NCBI RefSeq assembly: GCF_030818795.1
Contig: NZ_JAUTAY010000001.1
Location: forward strand, 3,038,001-3,102,000
Length of the DNA stretch: 64,000 nucleotides
Origin: Microbacterium sp. SORGH_AS_0862
GTDB taxonomy: Bacteria; Actinomycetota; Actinomycetes; Actinomycetales; Microbacteriaceae
Direction of reading: 5' to 3'
The position numbers and the translations under genes are program-made. Each line of letters opens with the position of its first letter. Position 1 is the first letter of the stretch. Of this stretch, positions 583 to 16,845 are shown in pieces. The notes under the pieces are model-generated. The model saw only the letters and a program-made list of their open reading frames with translations, did no database searches and was not told the DNA's origin.

Positions 583-1359
583 TCATGGGCACGCGCCCCC
601 TGTCACCGGGCATCGTTCGCCGTCCCACGGCTGCCTCGGATGCTTCTGGAGCAGCTCGGCGGTGGGCGCCCATCCGAGATTGAGGACTCTTGCCACTACC
701 AGGATCGTCACGAATCTCGCGCCCGCATCTCGGACGACCGCGGCCACGCTCTGCGACTTTGCCCCTGTAGTGAATGTGTCGTCGAAGACGACGACATGTC
801 TGCCAGTCAGATCGACCGGCGGTCGTAGCTCAAGCGAACCGGTATCAATTACTCGCTCGCGGGCATTGGCTGTCCGCTCGATGCGCAGTTCGTTCCAGTG
901 CCGAGGCGCAAATCTCGCAAGCGCTGCAAGCGGGTGCCCGTCTGGTCGACTGCCTGGGATCCCCGAGGGGACCAACACAATATGGTCAACTGGCCCACCG
1001 ACCGCCTCCACACACTGCACGTGTCTGTAGAAGAAGTGCCACGTGAGTGCTGACAGTCGGTAGAGAGGCTCTGCCTGGACGTCCTTCGGCCAGCCGTCTT
1101 TGTAATTACGAATGTCCTGTCGAAACTGAGCGTTCACTTCACAGGCGTAACTGAGGGGGACAACGAGGTTCGCGACGCGCCACTCGCCGGCGACTCCTCG
1201 GAGTTCTCTGCAGCTGTTGCACACTGGGTTAGCTGGAAGATCGCGCGACCCAGTACAGACTACGCACGCATCCGGATGTCGGATTGGGTTGAAGGCAAGC
1301 TGCGGCAGGATGCGGTTTACGTGTTGCATCCGTCGCTCGTCCTGCCTTCGATCGCTCAT
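583..1359 (-). CDS. ComF-like phosphoribosyltransferase
   Basis: This 258-residue protein has a four-cysteine zinc motif near its N-terminus (Cys32, 35, 47, 50 in a CxxC-x11-CxxC pattern) and a type-I phosphoribosyltransferase PRPP loop, VVVFDDTFTTGA, at about residues 189-200. This is the ComF layout. ComF is best known from DNA uptake, but its substrate is not established. The ATG at 1359 overlaps the stop of the upstream dprA-like gene (ATGA), so the two are probably translationally coupled; an ATG at 1374 is a weaker alternative. It lies in phage-like DNA, away from any competence operon, and is probably accessory cargo. Confidence 0.8.
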   Translation of the reverse strand: MSDRRQDERRMQHVNRILPQLAFNPIRHPDACVVCTGSRDLPANPVCNSCRELRGVAGEWRVANLVVPLSYACEVNAQFRQDIRNYKDGWPKDVQAEPLYRLSALTWHFFYRHVQCVEAVGGPVDHIVLVPSGIPGSRPDGHPLAALARFAPRHWNELRIERTANARERVIDTGSLELRPPVDLTGRHVVVFDDTFTTGAKSQSVAAVVRDAGARFVTILVVARVLNLGWAPTAELLQKHPRQPWDGERCPVTGGACP

Positions 1360-2246
1360 GCCCGAGTAAGCCACCTGGCTGCGTGCTGGGCGCGGCTGAG
1401 GATCTCTCGAACCGCCTGCTGAGCCTCTGTGGCACTGTTGACGACGGTGACGTCGTAGCCGCCCCCTGCGTAGGTCGCACCCCAGGTGGTATCTCGGACG
1501 ACCTGGGAGGTGAGCACAAGCGGGCGCGCATGTTTAATGGCGGCATTTGCCTGGATTCGAGTACCAGACTTCTCGGACGCCTCAGCGATGACCGTGATCG
1601 AGCTGTACGCGCTCATGGTGATGTTTCGCTGCGGAAACGTCTGTCGATTCGGGCGTGCCTCAGGGCGGAACTGAGAGATCACAAGACCTGTCTCGGCAAT
1701 CTGGTCTTGAAGCGCTCGATGCTCTGAGGGGTAAACGTGGCGGAGCCCGTTCCCCAGAACGGCCACAGTGCGTCCACCCGCGGCAAGCGCCGCACGATGG
1801 GCAGAACCGTCCACGCCGCGAGCAAGCCCCGAAACTACCGTGATGGTGTCCTCCGAAAGAAGGCTGGCGAGCTCAGAAGCGAACTTCAGGCCGGTGTCCG
1901 AAACTTCTCGGCTCCCAACGATCGCCGCCGAGAGGCGGTCGCTGCGAACTTCTCCGCGCGCGTAGATCGCGAGCGGGTAGTCGAACACACTGCGCATCTG
2001 TGTCGGGTAGTTGTCGTCGAATGGGGTCAGGACGATAATTCCCTCCGCCTCCCACACCTCGAGCTCTCTCGCCGCAGCATCGAGCGCCTCAGTCACGTCG
2101 ACTTCGAGCAGCGTGCCCTCGGCCGGATGCTGGAGCACGTCCGAAGGTAGTTCACCCTCCGCAAACCGTCGGCGGAGATCCGCAGGTGATAGCCCCCGAC
2201 CAGTGGGCGGGTAGAGGAGAGCCAGCAGTGCGACGTTCTCGCGCAT
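1356..2246 (-). CDS. DprA/Smf-like Rossmann (SLOG) protein
   Basis: The 296-residue product has the DprA core: a GSR motif at residues 111-113, then SGLARGVDGSAHRAAL at 139-154 and a segment with FPQRN and SGTRIQA, matching the nucleotide- and ssDNA-binding fold of DprA. It is shorter than typical chromosomal actinobacterial DprA. The start at 2246 has AGGGGA at a good distance; an ATG two codons earlier would sit on top of that site. It follows the stop of the 246-residue gene by two bases and overlaps the ComF-like gene, forming one tight operon. Canonical DprA loads RecA on incoming DNA; in a mobile element the role could instead be DNA protection or defence. Confidence 0.85.
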   Translation of the reverse strand: MRENVALLALLYPPTGRGLSPADLRRRFAEGELPSDVLQHPAEGTLLEVDVTEALDAAARELEVWEAEGIIVLTPFDDNYPTQMRSVFDYPLAIYARGEVRSDRLSAAIVGSREVSDTGLKFASELASLLSEDTITVVSGLARGVDGSAHRAALAAGGRTVAVLGNGLRHVYPSEHRALQDQIAETGLVISQFRPEARPNRQTFPQRNITMSAYSSITVIAEASEKSGTRIQANAAIKHARPLVLTSQVVRDTTWGATYAGGGYDVTVVNSATEAQQAVREILSRAQHAARWLTRA

Positions 2247-2248
2247 GA

Positions 2249-2989
2249 TCATTCCCCTGACTCGCCGTTGGCCCGGCGCACATTGGTGGCTGGATGAGCA
2301 ACATTCGCACATACATACGACACGCTCTGTGTGCTCGCCGTAAGAACCACGTGAACCTGCGCCTGACCTTGTTCGATTGTATCCGCGCGACCCGCCGCCG
2401 CGCCGTTATCCGAGATCTCGGCGAGTGGAACGAGATCGCGGGTATGTCTCTCCGTCGCCCCGGCAACGTCGCTGATCTCGGTAAGTACGACGTCCGCGAC
2501 CGCGTCACCGAATCCGACCTCGAGGGTCATGGTCTCCATTGGCCGCGCCTTCGCTCGGGCGATACGCTCGCCCCAGCCGGCCGGGTCGGGTACATCGGAG
2601 GCCTCCTTGGGAGGGGGAGCGGCTTTCTCCGGAAGATCCCGCACGCTGCATTCTTCACTCGGCAGGGCGGTAGTGGCGGGGATCTGGATCAGTAAGCTGT
2701 CGGTCGTAATGCCGAGCGCCCAGCCCACTTGTGCCTCGGGGGATTCGGGGTGGGGTGGGTTCGCGCGCTGTGCTTCGCCGTAGAGGAAGCTGTCAGCGTC
2801 GATGACGATTCGGGTGGGTGTCGTCGGAGTCGTTTCCGTGCTGGTGTGGAGGTAGCTGCCCTCTCTGATCGCGAGATGCGCGTAGTCGACACCGAGCACC
2901 AGAACTTCGGAGTCCGGATCCGCGTCGGTGGCGAGTCGCGCTGTGACGGTGCGGGTGCCGAACAGGGCCTCGAGGTCGGTGATGTGCAT
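2249..2989 (-). CDS. Unknown 246-residue element protein upstream of dprA-like gene
   Basis: I do not recognise a family. The N-terminal half (ITDLEALFGTRTVTARLATDADPDSEVLVLGVDYAHLAIRE) looks like a compact mixed alpha/beta domain; the middle (about residues 110-145) is rich in Pro, Glu and Lys and probably disordered; the C-terminal part (about 150-235) has beta-like strands. No signal peptide or membrane segment is evident. Its stop is two bases before the dprA-like start, so it is co-transcribed with the dprA/comF-like pair and may be a partner. It follows the fibre-like gene by 12 bp, so it could equally belong to a phage structural or lysogeny set. Confidence 0.6.
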   Translation of the reverse strand: MHITDLEALFGTRTVTARLATDADPDSEVLVLGVDYAHLAIREGSYLHTSTETTPTTPTRIVIDADSFLYGEAQRANPPHPESPEAQVGWALGITTDSLLIQIPATTALPSEECSVRDLPEKAAPPPKEASDVPDPAGWGERIARAKARPMETMTLEVGFGDAVADVVLTEISDVAGATERHTRDLVPLAEISDNGAAAGRADTIEQGQAQVHVVLTASTQSVSYVCANVAHPATNVRRANGESGE

Positions 2990-3001: not shown

Positions 3002-3583
3002 TCACCGGACGACGGACAGATAGCCCGCGCTGCTGATATGGACGTTTGGCTGGGCTCCCGCGGGCGCGTCGGGGAGCAAGAAGATGCGCACCCCGGAGCT
3101 CCCTGTTGCGATGGCCGCACCTGAGCCGGGATCGATTACAACTCCGTTGTCACCGCCACGGATCTCGGATGCACCTAGACCGATCGCTGCGATGCCCGCC
3201 GTGTTGGCCCCGAGTCGGATGGGCGTCGCGCCGGCGATCACGATCTCCCCGCCTTCGGAGACAGTGAAATTGCCGGTGAGCGTCGTGTTGCCGTCGATCC
3301 CGAAAGTGCCCGTGATCGTCGTGGGACCGGAGATCTCCGTGTTGCCCGACACGATCAGCGTTCCCGTGATCGTCAACTGCCCGTCCACGGTCTCTTCACC
3401 GGACACGATCAGCGTGCCCGACACTCGCGCGGAACCCTCCACGATCAGACCCTCAGCTGAGGCGACACGCAGCGCCCCACGCGTGATGGACGTGAACCCG
3501 ACCGGTGCGGTGGTCTCGAGCGTCTTGAGCCGGTCGAAGATCTCCCCGAAGACGTCCTCGTAGTCGCCAGGAACTCGTCTCAT
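3002..3583 (-). CDS. Beta-repeat fibre-like (tail-fibre-like) protein
   Basis: The 193-residue product has a short helical N-terminus (about residues 1-25, EDVFGEIFDRLKTLE), then a long run of short beta repeats between about 45 and 115, with units such as GTLIVSG, GQLTITG, GPTTITG and GNTTLTG. A Gly/Ala-rich region and a C-terminal 'NVHISSAGYLSVVR' follow. This is typical of trimeric phage tail fibres or spikes. No baseplate or tail-tube genes are nearby, so it is an orphan in this window. The start overlaps the stop of the upstream small gene by 4 bp. Confidence 0.65.
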   Translation of the reverse strand: MRRVPGDYEDVFGEIFDRLKTLETTAPVGFTSITRGALRVASAEGLIVEGSARVSGTLIVSGEETVDGQLTITGTLIVSGNTEISGPTTITGTFGIDGNTTLTGNFTVSEGGEIVIAGATPIRLGANTAGIAAIGLGASEIRGGDNGVVIDPGSGAAIATGSSGVRIFLLPDAPAGAQPNVHISSAGYLSVVR

Positions 3584-3932: not shown

Positions 3933-4211
3933 TCATCGGAGCACCGCCGCGTTGCGTCGGGTTGGGCTCCAGTCGGGTTCCGTGCCGGCGATCATCGCCG
4001 TGTATGCCTCCTGGAAGTCGCCGCTGATGCTGACTTGGGTGGCGTCGGTGGCGATGATGACGGTGTCTGTCGTGATCGGGAAGACGTCGCCTTTCCGCAT
4101 CGCTTTACGCAGTCCTGCGACGAGCTTCTGTGCTTCGGCCTCGGAGAGCTCGAGCGTGTGTTCGTTGATCCGCAATGTGGCGTGGCTGTTGTCGGTGGGC
4201 ATGGGGCTCAC
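3933..4211 (-). CDS. Small unknown element protein
   Basis: The 92-residue product has an N-terminal segment 'ATLRINEHTLELSEAEAQKLVAGLRKAM' (strand, then helix) and a C-terminal segment with 'TTDTVIIATDATQVSISG' of beta character. It resembles small phage proteins but no family is recognised. The GTG at 4211 overlaps the upstream stop by 4 bp; an ATG at 4202 is an equally acceptable start. It is the last gene before the probable terminator at 3833-3867. Confidence 0.5.
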   Translation of the reverse strand: MSPMPTDNSHATLRINEHTLELSEAEAQKLVAGLRKAMRKGDVFPITTDTVIIATDATQVSISGDFQEAYTAMIAGTEPDWSPTRRNAAVLR

Positions 4212-4630
4212 CAGCTCGGTCCCGACCCGAAGATGGAACCGATCGCTCGGTGCTGCCGCTCCCGCGTGGGGCGGCGGGCGGCCGGTTTGGCAGAGCCGAA
4301 CAGCTCACTCATACGACGGGCCTGCATAACGAGCATCTCCTCGTCCTTGCCGGTGAGGAGGATGTCGCGGTCCTCGGGGGTGATGCCGAAGTCGTTCGCG
4401 ATGCGGATGCGTGCCGTCTCCAGCCGCTCAGCGTCCAGAAGGCTCTGCAGCTCTGCGATGCGCGCTTCAGCGTCGGATGCGGCCGTGCTCTCGAGAAGGT
4501 CGACGGTGTCCTCGGGCGTGTGGTCGGTTCGCGCTGCGACCGCCTTTGCCACGAGAGTCGGTGTCGGTCGATCCGCGTCTGAACTGTTGGTTTCGATGGT
4601 CACGGGCTGTCCTTGCGCGTCGGTGTTCAT
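4208..4630 (-). CDS. Scaffold-like coiled-coil protein
   Basis: The 140-residue acidic protein has a long helix around residues 50-75 (DAEARIAELQSLLDAERLE), then 'ANDFGITPEDRDILLTGKDEEML' and a basic C-terminal tail (about 115-135). This layout resembles small phage head-scaffolding proteins: an acidic N-terminus, a coiled coil and a basic tail that docks on capsid protein. No capsid gene is visible in the window, so the assignment rests on layout alone. It overlaps both neighbours by 4 bp. Confidence 0.5.
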   Translation of the reverse strand: MNTDAQGQPVTIETNSSDADRPTPTLVAKAVAARTDHTPEDTVDLLESTAASDAEARIAELQSLLDAERLETARIRIANDFGITPEDRDILLTGKDEEMLVMQARRMSELFGSAKPAARRPTRERQHRAIGSIFGSGPSW

Positions 4631-5182: not shown

Positions 5183-5557
5183 CTAGTTGCGGGCGATGTA
5201 TGTCATGGCTTCTTCGGCGGGAACGAGCCACGCTCCGCCGGCCTTGGTGGCAGGAAGTGTGTTGCTCTCGATGTCGAGTCGCACTGTGCGTTCCGCTCTC
5301 CCGGTGGCCTTGGCGAGTTGCTTGACCGTCCAGTGACTACGTTCCTCCGATGCCGCAGATTGCCGCGGCTCGTTGCCGGCTCCGGCAGTGCGCAGTTCGA
5401 GCAGTCCGACTTCGTAGATCTGCACGAGCAGGTGGTACAGACGCGAGTCGCCGGAGCGGTGTTTAAGGCGAAGCTCGTTCAGGCGTGCTGCTTGCCAGAG
5501 CATTCGTGCGTCGCCGGCCGTGAGCACGATCACGGGTTCTCTGGGGATATAGGTCAT
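5183..5557 (-). CDS. HTH protein, excisionase-like C-terminus
   Basis: In this 124-residue protein the last 50 residues form a MerR/excisionase-type DNA-binding helix-turn-helix: 'WTVKQLAKATGRAERTVR' followed by a short wing ending in 'AWLVPAEEAMTYI'. The N-terminal part (1-70) is helical, with no recognised domain. A role as recombination directionality factor or early regulator is plausible because the element encodes a serine integrase, but there is no direct proof. The start overlaps the stop of the 53-residue gene by 4 bp. Confidence 0.6.
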   Translation of the reverse strand: MTYIPREPVIVLTAGDARMLWQAARLNELRLKHRSGDSRLYHLLVQIYEVGLLELRTAGAGNEPRQSAASEERSHWTVKQLAKATGRAERTVRLDIESNTLPATKAGGAWLVPAEEAMTYIARN

Positions 5558-5715
5558 CGTTCGAGCCCCCTGCGTGGCTCCGTGATGTCCACGGGTCGAT
5601 CTGTGCGGAGAGAGTCGTAGTAGTCCCTGCAGAGTTCAGCGAACCGCTGCGGGTTATCCCACGCGTCGACCATGTCTGCGACGTTGTGGGGCTTGGGAGC
5701 TGGGCGCTTCTCCAT
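5554..5715 (-). CDS. 53-residue element protein
   Basis: The small frame begins at the ATG at 5715, which overlaps the stop of the replication-type gene, and ends with a 4-bp overlap on the next start. The product is hydrophilic with a central 'NPQRFAELCRDYYDSLRTDRP' helix. Two-sided overlap in a tight operon is the main reason to accept it. No family is recognised. Confidence 0.5.
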   Translation of the reverse strand: MEKRPAPKPHNVADMVDAWDNPQRFAELCRDYYDSLRTDRPVDITEPRRGLER

Positions 5716-6584
5716 CAGAACGGCCTTCCGTCCTCGAAGATCTCGCCGCGAGCGCGGTACTCGCACCGTGTGCATGTTCCGTCGGGCAGCAGGCGATGTG
5801 TGCCGACCTCGCAGTGGCCGGCGGTCTTCGCAGCCGCGTCCAGCGCGTCCATGTTCGCCATGAGCGCGACGACCGCACGGCCGGCAGCGACAGTTCGTTG
5901 GGCGCGATGCATCGGTGTGAGCCGGGATGCGGGGAGATCGTCGGTCCATCGCTCTCCGTTCAGCCAGGAGCTGAGGTGTGGGACGAACTGTGCGTCTGTG
6001 GCCGTGCGTGCGTAGGCGATGCCGAAGCGCGTGACGTCGGCTTCAAGATCCGCCAGGGGTCGGCTCTTGGCCGCTCTGGTGAAAGCAGCGAACGCAGCCT
6101 TCCGCTGTACCTTCCTTGGCCAGTGCTTCCATGCTCGATCGAATGCATCCGCACAAGAGACTGAGTGATCTTCTGAGTGATCTATCTGAGTGATCTCTTC
6201 TGCACCGTCACTCTGACGGTTAGGTTGCGGCGCTGTGACGGTTAGGTCGGTGCTGTCGTCCTTGTAGGAGCTCTGCCTAGTAGGCGCTGTGCCTTCTAGG
6301 TGCTGTGACGTGTAGGCGCGGTTCACGACGATGAGATCCGATGTCCGGTAGCCGCCTTGGCCGGCACGACGACGTCGCTCGATGACCCCGAGCTCCTCGA
6401 GTCCGGACAACGCGCGCATGACCGTCGATACGGATGCGCCGATCATCGATGCGATGGTCTGCTGGCCTACAAAGGTCTCGTGGGTCTTGTCATCAGTGCG
6501 GTGACACACGGCCGCGAGGACTACCTTCTGCATCTGCGGAATGCCCTCGATCGAGTAGGCGAAGTCAGCGTCCTTGAAGCCCAC
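5715..6584 (-). CDS. HTH replication-initiation-type protein
   Basis: From the GTG at 6584 (GGGAGG eight bases upstream) the product has 289 residues. A winged-helix domain occupies about residues 20-85 ('TIASMIGASVSTVMRALSGLEELGVIERRR'), as in phage and plasmid replication proteins of the RepA/DnaD-like type. A polar linker follows, then a helical region (about 150-215) with 'AFDRAWKHWPRKVQRKAAFAAF' and 'FVPHLSSWLNGERW', and a C-terminal four-residue metal-like cluster (C, H, C and C in HCEVGTH and CTRCEY). The longer frame from 6629 lacks a ribosome site. It probably recruits host replication proteins to the element. Confidence 0.7.
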   Translation of the reverse strand: MGFKDADFAYSIEGIPQMQKVVLAAVCHRTDDKTHETFVGQQTIASMIGASVSTVMRALSGLEELGVIERRRRAGQGGYRTSDLIVVNRAYTSQHLEGTAPTRQSSYKDDSTDLTVTAPQPNRQSDGAEEITQIDHSEDHSVSCADAFDRAWKHWPRKVQRKAAFAAFTRAAKSRPLADLEADVTRFGIAYARTATDAQFVPHLSSWLNGERWTDDLPASRLTPMHRAQRTVAAGRAVVALMANMDALDAAAKTAGHCEVGTHRLLPDGTCTRCEYRARGEIFEDGRPF

Positions 6585-6689
6585 GCCAATCACCTCCCGC
6601 GGGGGTGAGAACGATAGAATTGGTGTCAAGAACCCGCCTGCCAGCAGAGTTCGTGAGAGCCGCCCCCAGGGGGCGGTTTTCTGTTTCGG

Positions 6690-7393: not shown

Positions 7394-7416
7394 TGGTTCT
7401 CTCCATCTCAACTATG

Positions 7417-7489
7417 TCCCGGCGGCTGGATTCGAACCAGCGGCCTTCAGGTTAGAAATCTGTCGCTCTATCCACCGAGCTACGCCGGG
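7417..7489 (-). tRNA. tRNA-Arg (anticodon TCT), element-borne
   Basis: The minus strand folds as a 73-nt tRNA. The acceptor arms are CCCGGCG (7489-7483) and CGCCGGG (7424-7418). The D stem is GCTC/GAGC, and the T arm is GCTGG-TTCGAAT-CCAGC. The anticodon loop is TTTCTAA, giving TCT, which reads the rare Arg codon AGA. The anticodon stem is weak, with mismatches at its outer and inner pairs, and CCA is not encoded. Both traits fit a phage-carried tRNA rather than a host housekeeping copy. Confidence 0.8.
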
Positions 7490-9399: not shown

Positions 9400-10797
9400 C
9401 TATGTGCCCGTCTTCCAGTCGATGACGATCTGGTCAGGGTCGAATCTCTTACCGGGGCCGCTCGGGAGAATCGTCACGGTCATCAGTAGCTCGACTGCCT
9501 CGCGCTTCGCCCCGAGGGGGATCTGCTTCCACCGTTCAGCTGCCTGTGGCCCGGCGAGTTCGGTGAGCACGGTTCTCGGCTTTGAGGCCTCGCGCCGGCG
9601 TTCGGCGTCGCGACGCTGATCCCTGAGCCGTGCGGTGATCCGCTTCAACTGGTTCGCGTCGATTTCATCCGCAGCGAACTGGTCAGCGACGACATCGAGT
9701 TTCGCTTCGATCCCAGCGATCTCCTGCCGGCATGCGTCCGCGACCTTCGAATCGCCAGCGCTGAACAGTTCGGCCGCGTCAGACGCGCTCAACCGTGCCA
9801 CGATGACGCCCTCAACTACCTGGTCGACGAGCTCTTGCTGTCTCCGAACCCGGAAGCAGTTCGAGCACTGATACGCCGCCGGCTGGCGCTTGGTGGCGCC
9901 CGTGCTGGGGTTCTCTACGTATCGACCAACAGTGCGCCGCATTCTGCCTCCGCAGCGCCCACACAGGGCTAGCCCCGAGAGAAGGTACTTGGGCGTCGGG
10001 CCGTCGTGGTTGTCCCGACGAGAGGGATCCGTGAGCAGCGCGACCAACTGCGCGTGCGTGTCCTCGTCGATGATCGGCTCAGTGGTCGCCTTACCGATGA
10101 CCTTCCCCCTGTGCACCCGTAGGCCGGCGTTCGAAGGACGCATGAGGATCTGACGCAGGATCGTCGTGTTCCACTGGTCAGACTTGGGTCCGGGTTCGCC
10201 ACGCTTGTTGAGGTCCGTCACGACCGAGCGGAGCGACTCTCGCGCCAGGACTCGGCGGGCGCACTCGCGGACGATGTTGGCTTGGAAGTCGTTCGGCACG
10301 TCGCGCCCATCGACGCGTACATACCCATAGGGCGGATATCCGTGCGGTTCGCCCTTCTCCGCCTTTTCCTGAAACTTCCGCTTTAGTCGGCGAGCCTGGT
10401 TCTCCACTTCGAGGCGAGCGAACACGCCCATCTGCCGCGCCATCGCTCGGCCTTCTGGGGTCTCGAGATCGATAGTGCCGCTGACGTTCGCCAGAGTGAG
10501 TCCGTGACGGTCGGCGAGATCGATGATGTCCTCGAGCTCGCGCGGCGTGCGGGTGAGGCGATCGACGGCCCACACCACCACTGCCTCAAGGTGCCCCGAT
10601 CGGATGTCGCGCACCATTCGCTCATAGGCGGGTCGCGACTTCGAACGAGTGGCGCTGACGTCGTTGTCGGAGTAGACCTGCACCACTTCCCATCCGCGGG
10701 TGGCGGCGACTCGTTCGCAGTCTTCTCGTTGTCGGGTGACACCCAGCTCGGTGCCCTCCGTGTCCTTTGAGATTCGGACGTAGATTCCTGCGCGCAT
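9400..10797 (-). CDS. Large serine integrase (site-specific recombinase)
   Basis: The 465-residue protein has an N-terminal resolvase domain (about 1-150) with the catalytic-serine motif YVRISKD (Ser10) and the 'VVVWAVDRLTR' segment. A recombinase domain follows (about 165-260, with 'GYPPYGYVRVDG'). A zinc ribbon (about 280-325) has Cys pairs in 'CGRCGG' and 'CSNC', and a coiled-coil region at about 340-410 precedes a conserved 'WKQIPLGAKREAVELLM' tail. Enzymes of this class join attP and attB and, with a directionality factor, excise the element. The gene reads away from the adjacent att-like dyad. A TATAAC box lies so close to the ATG that its mRNA would be nearly leaderless. Confidence 0.95.
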   Translation of the reverse strand: MRAGIYVRISKDTEGTELGVTRQREDCERVAATRGWEVVQVYSDNDVSATRSKSRPAYERMVRDIRSGHLEAVVVWAVDRLTRTPRELEDIIDLADRHGLTLANVSGTIDLETPEGRAMARQMGVFARLEVENQARRLKRKFQEKAEKGEPHGYPPYGYVRVDGRDVPNDFQANIVRECARRVLARESLRSVVTDLNKRGEPGPKSDQWNTTILRQILMRPSNAGLRVHRGKVIGKATTEPIIDEDTHAQLVALLTDPSRRDNHDGPTPKYLLSGLALCGRCGGRMRRTVGRYVENPSTGATKRQPAAYQCSNCFRVRRQQELVDQVVEGVIVARLSASDAAELFSAGDSKVADACRQEIAGIEAKLDVVADQFAADEIDANQLKRITARLRDQRRDAERRREASKPRTVLTELAGPQAAERWKQIPLGAKREAVELLMTVTILPSGPGKRFDPDQIVIDWKTGT

Positions 10798-10823
10798 GCA
10801 GTGAGGTTATAACCAACCTCTGA
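10798..10823. promoter_or_regulatory. Candidate right attachment site overlapping the integrase -10 box
   Basis: Between the integrase ATG and the resumed tadC frame lies GAGGTTATAACCAACCTC (10803-10820), with outer arms GAGGTT/AACCTC and an inner perfect palindrome GGTTATAACC (10805-10814). Such dyads are typical of serine-integrase half-sites. On the minus strand TATAAC within it could be the integrase -10 element. The matching left site is outside the window. Confidence 0.55.
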
Positions 10824-10909
10824 CACCGCTCGTCTTCCTCATCCTGCCGCTCAGCGTGCTGATCGCTGTGTTCCCCGGCATCGTCCTGCTGCGGCTGGGG
10901 TTGTCATGA
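10805..10909 (+). pseudogene. 3' remnant of a tadC-like (type II secretion F family) gene
   Basis: The frame from 10805 to the stop at 10907-10909 encodes about 34 residues, with 'LTPLVFLILPLSVLIAVFPG' followed by 'IVLLRLGLS'. This is the hydrophobic C-terminus typical of TadC/GspF-family pilus assembly proteins. It directly precedes a Tad pilin-like gene and TadE/TadG-like genes on the same strand, where tadC is expected. The upstream part of the gene is replaced by the element's integrase end. Whether the disrupted protein is still functional with an element-supplied C-terminus cannot be judged here. Confidence 0.6.
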
Positions 10910-15312: not shown

Positions 15313-16845
15313 TCACCGTCGGCGGAGGAGAAGTACCGCGTCGTCGATGGTGGTGGCGGTGCCGTCGGGTGCCGTGACGGGGCGTGGGCGGATCTCGGCG
15401 ACGACGGTCTCCCACATGGCCGCATCCAGCGCGAGTGCGGCGAGCTCTTCGTGCAGGGCGGGGAACACCGTGTGCTGCGCATCGGCGTGCGACCACGGCG
15501 GGACGGACGCGTGCGACACCACGAGCAGGTGTCCGCCCGACGCGACGCGGGATGCGGCGGCGCGCAGGATCTCGAGGCGGTCCAGCGTCACGGGGGAGTG
15601 CAGGAAGGATGCGGTCACGAGATCGAAGGAGCCCTCCGGCATCCCGTCCGGAAGCTCCGCCCGCACGAAGCGCGCGCGCTCGTCGAGGTCGGCGCTCGCC
15701 GCCGCCGCGGTGGCCCGCGCGATGGCCGTGGCGCTGATGTCCACTCCCGTGACCTTCCAGCCCTGCTCCGCGAGCCACAGGGCGTCGCCTCCCTCGCCGC
15801 AGCCGAGATCGAGCGCCGTGCCCGGCGGCAGGGATGCCGCCACATCGGCGACCGTGCGATTGACGCGGCCCGACCACATCCGCTCGTCTCCCGCGTACCG
15901 ACCTTCCCAGTACGCGGCAGGTGCCGCCGCCCGGTCGAGATCCTCCTCGACGAGCGCAGCATTGACAGCCGCCCCGACGAAGGATGCGGTCCCCATCGAC
16001 AGCGGCACGTTGGCGCTCGGGTCGATGACGTTGCCGGCGGCCCAGACGCGCGGGTGGCTCGTGCGCCCGACACGGTCGACCTGGATCGTGGCACCGAGCG
16101 GACCCTCCGAACGCACGAGGTCGAGACCGTCGAGGAAGCCGTCCTGCGGAACCGGGCGACCCGCGGTGAAGATCGCCGACACGGCGACCTCGCGCCCGTC
16201 CGCCGTGCGCACGGCGTCGATCCGGTCACCCTCACCGCGCACCTCGACCACCGGAGAGCTCACCAGCCGCACTCCGCGGGCGAGCAGCCGGTGACGGAGC
16301 CCGGGATCGAGCTCGCCGAGCCCCGCGGTGAAGACCACGACGTCGTCGCCCCACTGCGTGAGCAGCTGCGCCTGGTGTGCACCGAGCGGCGACGTCGTCA
16401 GCACGCCGATGGTCTCACCGCGCACCTCCCAGCCGTGGCAGTAGGGGCAGTGGAGCACCGTCCGCCCCCACCTCTCGGCGAGACCGGGGATGTCGGGGAG
16501 CTCGTCGCTCAGTCCTGTCGCGACGATGAGCGCGCGAGTGCGGTGCGTGGTGCCGTCGGCGAGCGTCACGGTGACGCCGTCCTCGTCGTCCGCCTCGACA
16601 CGCGAGACAGATCCGTCGACGAAGCGGCCGCCGTATGCCTCGACCTCGGCACGGCCGCGGGAGCGCAGCTCACCCGGCGCCAGCCCCTCGTGCCCGAGTA
16701 CACCGTGCATGTGGTCGGCGAAGCGGTTACGGCCGGAGCCGGCGTCGACGACCGTGACGGCGCGACGGGCGCGCACGAGCATGAGGGCTGCGGACAGGCC
16801 GGCGGGACCGGCGCCGATGACGAGGACGTCCGTGGAGTTCTGCAT
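15313..16845 (-). CDS. Fused FAD/NAD(P) oxidoreductase (TrxB-like) and SAM methyltransferase
   Basis: Two enzymes share one 510-residue chain. Residues 1-300 form a thioredoxin-reductase-like flavoprotein: an FAD-binding GxGxxG (VIGAGPAGLSAA) at the start, a redox CPYC pair (in HCPYCHGWEV) and a late 'VWAAGNVIDP' FAD motif. Residues 310-510 form a class-I SAM methyltransferase with 'ALDLGCGEGGDALWLAEQGW' and 'VTGVDIS'. The fusion is known in other actinomycetes, but its substrate is not established. ATG 16845 is chosen because upstream frame runs into the divergent regulator. That neighbour, an XRE-cupin protein 28 bp away, is its likely repressor. Confidence 0.85.
   Translation of the reverse strand: MQNSTDVLVIGAGPAGLSAALMLVRARRAVTVVDAGSGRNRFADHMHGVLGHEGLAPGELRSRGRAEVEAYGGRFVDGSVSRVEADDEDGVTVTLADGTTHRTRALIVATGLSDELPDIPGLAERWGRTVLHCPYCHGWEVRGETIGVLTTSPLGAHQAQLLTQWGDDVVVFTAGLGELDPGLRHRLLARGVRLVSSPVVEVRGEGDRIDAVRTADGREVAVSAIFTAGRPVPQDGFLDGLDLVRSEGPLGATIQVDRVGRTSHPRVWAAGNVIDPSANVPLSMGTASFVGAAVNAALVEEDLDRAAAPAAYWEGRYAGDERMWSGRVNRTVADVAASLPPGTALDLGCGEGGDALWLAEQGWKVTGVDISATAIARATAAAASADLDERARFVRAELPDGMPEGSFDLVTASFLHSPVTLDRLEILRAAASRVASGGHLLVVSHASVPPWSHADAQHTVFPALHEELAALALDAAMWETVVAEIRPRPVTAPDGTATTIDDAVLLLRRR

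Follow-up and report, generated by a model that had tools for sequence, protein, structure and literature searches.

The window that we analyzed is a stretch of 64,000 nucleotides from Microbacterium sp. SORGH_AS_0862 (positions 3,038,001 to 3,102,000 of contig NZ_JAUTAY010000001.1). Near its left end, on the reverse strand, a gene for a DprA-like protein is directly followed by a gene for a phosphoribosyltransferase (PRTase), and both lie within an integrated element that splits the gene tadC. An initial annotation, made from the sequence alone, had described these two genes and the 246-codon open reading frame (ORF) ahead of them as tightly packed: one junction has a gap of 2 bp and the other an overlap of 4 bp. 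All three ORFs were found as described (Table 1). The 2-bp gap lies between the stop of the 246-codon ORF and ATG 2246 of the DprA-like gene, and the stop of the DprA-like gene shares 4 bp (ATGA) with the start codon of the PRTase gene. ATG 2246, which has AGGGG seven bases 5' of it, is most likely the start of the DprA-like gene; an alternative start, ATG 2252, overlaps the stop of the 246-codon ORF. A scan for promoters and terminators gave two promoter-like sites (0.6 expected) and one terminator-like site (1.1 expected), and none was placed before the pair.

The pair belongs to the ShosTA family

Because they have matches in Pfam, PADLOC, and the protein databases, the DprA-like and PRTase genes are evidently more than chance ORFs. 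The DprA-like protein matches PADLOC's ShosA (E = 2.7e-63), Pfam's DNA_processg_A (E = 8.7e-57), and PADLOC's PsyrA (E = 4.6e-36). When we searched with its structural model, ShosA (8zva) was Foldseek's first-ranked match, and the best match from VIA-align was DprA (3maj). The PRTase matches PADLOC's ShosT (E = 4.7e-6), and its match to PADLOC's PsyrT spans 43 residues (E = 0.068). The best folds for its model are ShosT and ComF (7p0h), which are level with each other by fold; the window's PRTase aligns to residues 149–414 of ShosT only. Among 5.8 billion proteins, the PRTase has 19 homologs at E ≤ 1e-3 (counting the window's own), and the closest named ones are from Microbacterium.

The functional motifs reported in the initial annotation are all present in the translations. 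The nucleotide-binding motifs of DprA, GSR and SGLARGVDGSAH, are unbroken. The PRTase begins with a zinc ribbon (C32xxC35 and C47xxC50, both intact), has an intact loop for binding phosphoribosyl pyrophosphate (PRPP; VVVFDDTFTTGA, FDDTFTTGA), and carries CPVTGGACP at its C-terminus.

Three features of ShosTA are present: a DprA/SLOG-type protein, a PRTase with a PRPP loop, and their adjacency as a predicted operon. The E. coli-type toxin has a HAD-like N-terminal region that the window's PRTase lacks. We treated this region as non-defining because PADLOC's ShosT profile has just 237 positions. (Even in the toxin of P2_4C9, this region scores weakly: its match to PF00702, at E = 2.9e-4, is below the cut-off.) The pair is a member of ShosTA by both sequence and fold, so the suggestion in the initial annotation of a new and distinct system does not hold: ShosTA has been described as a toxin-antitoxin system and as an antiphage system (PMC9122126, PMC12593503). 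Also, actinobacterial ShosTA is itself already published.

The pair recurs in actinobacterial phages, plasmids, and genomes

To survey the pairing, we built a profile (A1) from 15 PRTases and scored it over 131 loci (loci and genomes are given as L and G numbers). The 39 rows above 60 bits correspond to 32 distinct places after merging repeats of one locus. DprA lies directly upstream of the PRTase, on the same strand, in 25 of these 32 places, one of which (L055) has its PRTase split over two frames. DprA is downstream in two places (L050 and L057), two more are cut by the start of the record (L061 and L109), and we found no DprA in the other three (L044, L054, and L068, the last at a contig end). 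Among the 38 weaker rows, the pair was present only in two ShosTA-type phage pairs (L093 and L102). The adjacency of DprA and a ComF-type protein, which the initial annotation proposed to search for, is indeed recurrent. The carriers are Gordonia phages, plasmids, and genomes, and all of the named hosts are actinobacteria. Within the PRTase family, the two CxxC motifs are present in 28 of the 32 places and the C-terminal cysteine motif in 19 (some of the others are cut).

Similarly, four of 198 genomes of the genus (including this one) have a strong match to the PRTase (E = 1e-36 or better), and it is paired with DprA in all four. Our scan of genome contigs for pairs is not a census because it used a single peptide pattern. 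We also found 36 phage records with a match to DprA, and of the seven that we opened, six have a PRTase adjoining DprA; the exception is from an Acinetobacter phage. The PRTase of P2_4C9 is annotated as hypothetical (PF00156 at E = 1.1e-4, below the cut-off). Of 11 plasmid records, we opened six: five have the pair and one is cut at the record start. The pairs in Gordonia phages Bosnia and Vasanti are not independent evidence, as they were located via DprA and were included in A1. A DprA search of viral contigs gave one locus (L003), which lacks a PRTase of the window's family.

No third gene near the 25 pairs is common to more than three of them. Neighbors are shared among three Micromonospora and between L040 and L046, and L040 and L108 share a transposase-like match. 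(We compared flanks of up to 2.5 kb. Downstream, the window offered 585 bp and L038 3 bp; loci from the genome search had flanks of 1.5 kb.) Two backbone-type genes of the window's element have relatives on the upstream side of other pairs, in L099 (tail-like, 38%) and in L039 from Agromyces (36%), and in genome G059 the pair is also behind a relative of the tail-like gene.

Two plasmid loci have other neighbors. In a Mycolicibacterium chubuense plasmid (L105, 1646–3968), a gene annotated as SIR2 family is directly upstream of the pair, which might be a defense cluster. In Mycolicibacterium plasmid pMYP1-18.1 (L044, 5878–6624), where no DprA was found by the PRTase, the upstream ORF appears by eye to be an AAA-type ATPase.

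The pair is carried by an element that splits tadC

The initial annotation placed these genes at the cargo end of an integrated element. They are inside such an element, but about 5 kb from its left end rather than at an end. The right junction is a detached 3' end of tadC, beside the serine integrase. The left junction falls beyond the window, near base 15,350 of locus L006 (~3,033,350 in the genome). Because the left half of tadC ends about 4.65 kb to the left of the window, the element should be about 15.5 kb long. Of eleven tadC ends in relatives, seven were readable, with six intact and one (G002) split; the four left out are L070, L076, L078, and L080.

A sister element of about 11.2 kb occupies the same site in genome G211. 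The two elements have in common the left 1 kb (89%), the integrase (96% at the amino acid level), the replication initiation protein (Rep; 74%), and three small genes (79–91%). We found no match to the DprA-PRTase pair in the sister element. Instead, the slot behind a 108-amino-acid gene holds a SHOCT-domain gene, and farther left is a gene with a weak match to NYN. From these comparisons, the pair evidently occupies a slot for variable cargo in a serine-integrase element of ~15.5 kb. Such a slot is a defined place to seek further cargo. The left part of the element contains a 393-codon ORF that could be additional cargo (L006, 18798–19979); searches of Pfam, PHROGs, and PADLOC gave nothing for it at E ≤ 0.1.

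Related integrases (E ≤ 1e-60) are encoded by 30 other genomes of the genus, out of 366 searched. We opened the five closest, including G211, and each of them has its integrase between the two parts of tadC, with the opposite orientation in G002 and G186. Altogether, tadC elements of 7.7–15.5 kb, with the same split point and differing gene content, are found in six genomes of the genus, in both orientations. Among chosen ORFs that we scanned, there is a major-capsid-like gene in the elements of G002 and G143, a similar ORF in G186, and a tape-measure-like gene in G368. In the window's element and the sister element (29 ORFs), we found no terminase, portal, or capsid among the PHROG families listed (25 of 27), so a full prophage within the element is unsupported. 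The window's element, of about 15.5 kb, has an integrase, Rep, and scaffold- and tail-like genes, and the tadC elements look like putative satellite-type elements. The tail-fiber-like protein has relatives in L094, L095, L096, and L099. In PMC9862828, we found no mention of tad, pilus, serine, satellite, DprA, or an integration site.

The element also contains a tRNA-Arg (tct) gene (7416–7489 of the window), for which we found no counterpart within the sister element or the other four tadC elements that we opened. We considered it as the attachment site and rejected it: there is no repeat of at least 14 bases in 104 kb (the best is 11), and the junctions are in tadC.

Table 1. Features of the tadC element. 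Positions are those of the window unless a locus is given.
Feature	Position	Strand	Details
ShosT-like PRTase, proposed toxin	583..1359	-	258 aa; ATG 1359
ShosA-like DprA, proposed antitoxin	1356..2246	-	296 aa from ATG 2246; 298 aa from ATG 2252
246-codon ORF, judged outside the system	2249..2989	-	Matches to a backbone gene and P0023
Tail-fiber-like backbone protein	3002..3583	-	193 aa; weak PHROG matches including a tail fiber family (E = 0.0035)
Head-scaffolding-like protein	4208..4630	-	PHROG 233, 1.8e-9
Helix-turn-helix (HTH) protein, perhaps an excisionase	5183..5557	-	Pfam HTH_17 1.4e-4 (below cut-off); PHROG excisionase 3e-3
Replication initiation protein	5715..6629	-	PHROG 270, 1.6e-31
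Serine integrase	9400..10797	-	Pfam Resolvase/Recombinase; PHROG integrase 2.9e-105
Detached 3' end of tadC, right junction	10823..10909	+	28 codons and stop
tadC element loci	9400-10909 and L006 ~15350; L095, L135, L136, L137, L138

A predicted toxin-antitoxin module

We propose that the pair, as a member of the ShosTA family, is a mobile toxin-antitoxin module acting by abortive infection, and we consider this prediction to be likely. It draws on related systems. Protection against T7 and lambda has been described for a DprA-PRTase pair from a P2 hotspot, and DprA homologs act as antitoxins (PMC9122126). According to a review (PMC12593503), ShosT is both a PRTase and a pyrophosphatase and disturbs the metabolism of purines, ShosA binds DNA, and Gp0.7 of T7 is the trigger. 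In another system, RqlI binds and restrains the genotoxic PRTase domain of RqlH (PMC4670107).

By analogy to these systems, we infer the toxicity of the PRTase, its neutralization, its trigger, and the antiphage effect. The first gene would encode a DprA-like antitoxin that binds DNA and, as with RqlI and RqlH, probably the PRTase itself. The second gene, with its 4-base overlap, would encode a toxin that uses PRPP. In an uninfected cell, the antitoxin would hold the toxin harmless. Phage activity could free the toxin, for example if the phage attacks host transcription, or if single-stranded DNA or replication intermediates draw off the antitoxin. The freed toxin would then disturb the nucleotide pool or the DNA, and the cell would be halted before the phage matures. 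As cargo in tadC, the pair would protect both the element and its host from other phages. The initial annotation also raised anti-restriction and DNA protection; we found no pointers to either, and no test was aimed at them.

One result calls for caution with this proposal: the PRTase domain of RqlH alone was insufficient to inhibit growth (PMC4670107), which suggests that such a domain by itself might not be enough. The HAD-scoring region of the P2-type toxin is presumably the pyrophosphatase, and if so, then killing by the window's toxin must come from the PRTase part. With a compact toxin of this kind, one could ask which part of ShosT killing depends on, and 25 pairs of the actinobacterial type are now available for testing.

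Alternatively, the pair might be an addiction module that mainly stabilizes the element against loss, with a secondary effect on phages. This would fit with the toxin-antitoxin layout and with carriage on plasmids. In actinobacteria, ShosTA tends to be plasmid-encoded (PMC10482375), and actinobacterial ShosTA is also listed among prophage-encoded systems (PMC10023795). However, a cloned DprA-PRTase pair conferred phage resistance (PMC9122126), and the sister element is kept at the same site without the pair. So we think that addiction is unlikely to be the main role.

Separation from the chromosomal competence genes

We also considered whether the element might carry a second competence set, with DprA loading RecA onto single-stranded DNA and the ComF-like protein aiding uptake. 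The pair does resemble DprA and ComF in folds and motifs, as reflected in the matches to 3maj and 7p0h described above. But the host genome has another DprA, at 3,194,104, and a ComF-like gene, at 601,910, each at its own chromosomal locus. For the ComF family, the PRTase scores 23.2 bits against a cut-off of 233.55, although the host's own ComF-like gene (66.8 bits) is below the cut-off as well.

The initial annotation suggested a tree to ask if this DprA groups with mobile or with chromosomal copies. In the more careful of two trees, with 49 DprAs, the window's DprA falls together with those of an Agromyces and a viral-contig cassette (support 100/97). Forcing it among 17 chromosomal DprAs was rejected (approximately unbiased test, p-AU = 5.95e-5), while a single clade of the 24 cassette DprAs and L129 was not rejected (p-AU = 0.52). 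(The first tree omitted L117, a fragment of 21 residues, and the careful tree also omitted L093, L124, L105, L103, and L126, which have long branches.) Given its separate clade and its patchy carriage on phages and plasmids, a role in competence seems very improbable. Instead, the recurrent mobile pairs and the tree agree with a mobile, defense-type module that is distinct from the chromosomal competence genes, as the initial annotation had suggested, and the apparent "competence operon" is explained as a known defense module.

Locus L129 (genome G010, 1291–2190 and 2268–2888) holds a DprA of the cassette type, which the tree places adjacent to the clade of the window's copy, beside a convergent gene with a Fic domain. 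There is no PRTase of the same family nearby.

The 246-codon ORF looks like a relic

The 246-residue protein belongs to no family in Pfam, PHROGs, PADLOC, or NCBIfam at E ≤ 0.1. Among the 5.8 billion proteins, it has one homolog at E ≤ 1e-3, P0023, over 59 residues. Residues 1–104 match, at 58%, the free-standing 108-amino-acid gene beside the tail-like gene in the sister element (G211, L095). Residues 115–173 match part of P0023, which weakly resembles a tail assembly chaperone (PHROG 344, E = 0.028). The continuation of P0023 has its match on the other strand of the window, at 2420–2512 (31 residues, 58%, E = 7e-7), so a short stretch seems to be inverted. In L094, another locus of G211, the same fragment likewise ends at almost the same point. 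The apparently inverted stretch (about 2411–2480) is flanked by inverted repeats, CCGAGATC and GATCTCGG. Outside the two matched parts, the ORF consists of this inverted stretch plus sequence that matched nothing. A search of viral contigs with P0023 confirmed none of four candidates.

The 246-codon ORF looks like a fusion relic of backbone genes at the cargo junction, most likely a by-product of rearrangement. Despite the tight packing and the 2-bp gap, it is hardly credible that its product is a sensor or regulator in a three-gene module, given the matches to the stand-alone gene of an element without the pair and to P0023 with its inverted continuation. Because we found the protein with none of the 24 other DprA-PRTase pairs (flanks of up to 2.5 kb), the module stands with two genes but not with the three that were first proposed, and we rejected the 246-residue protein as a component.

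Comparison with known systems

PsyrTA/RqlHI also combines a DprA-like antitoxin with a toxic PRTase domain, but there a RecQ-like helicase is fused to the PRTase domain, and the toxin gene precedes the antitoxin gene (PMC4670107). In the window, the PRTase is a lone protein and its gene is second.

The window's pair matches ShosTA (E. coli APEC O1 structures 8zva–8zvd, and P2-like phages) by PADLOC's profiles and by fold. In ShosTA, as in P2_4C9, the DprA-like gene is directly before the PRTase gene, and the system is carried by phages (PMC9122126). However, the toxin of ShosTA has 424–432 amino acids with the HAD-like N-terminal region, while the window's toxin is shorter and lacks this region. 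Conversely, the window's toxin has the CxxC-CxxC ribbon, which is missing from the toxins of P2_4C9, Riah, and Mana.

We speculate, quite tentatively, that there is a separate actinobacterial branch of ShosTA in which the zinc ribbon replaces the HAD-like domain. Such a toxin would have to poison cells solely through PRPP transfer, perhaps to nucleic acid that the ribbon holds. Within the genus, it would be interchangeable cargo of small satellite-like elements that cut tadC. As tadC is a pilus-assembly gene, a single insertion could eliminate a phage receptor and also introduce a suicide module. At the level of search listings, our literature searches did not find a published description of the compact zinc-ribbon toxin or of the tadC elements.

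The pairs from Gordonia phages Bosnia and Vasanti and from actinobacterial plasmids agree with the window's pair in gene order and in having a zinc ribbon and a PRPP loop, and most but not all of them have the C-terminal cysteine motif. Bosnia and Vasanti are full phages. The pair adjoins the integrase in Bosnia and a minor tail gene in Vasanti, and in both phages there are small HTH-annotated genes upstream of it.
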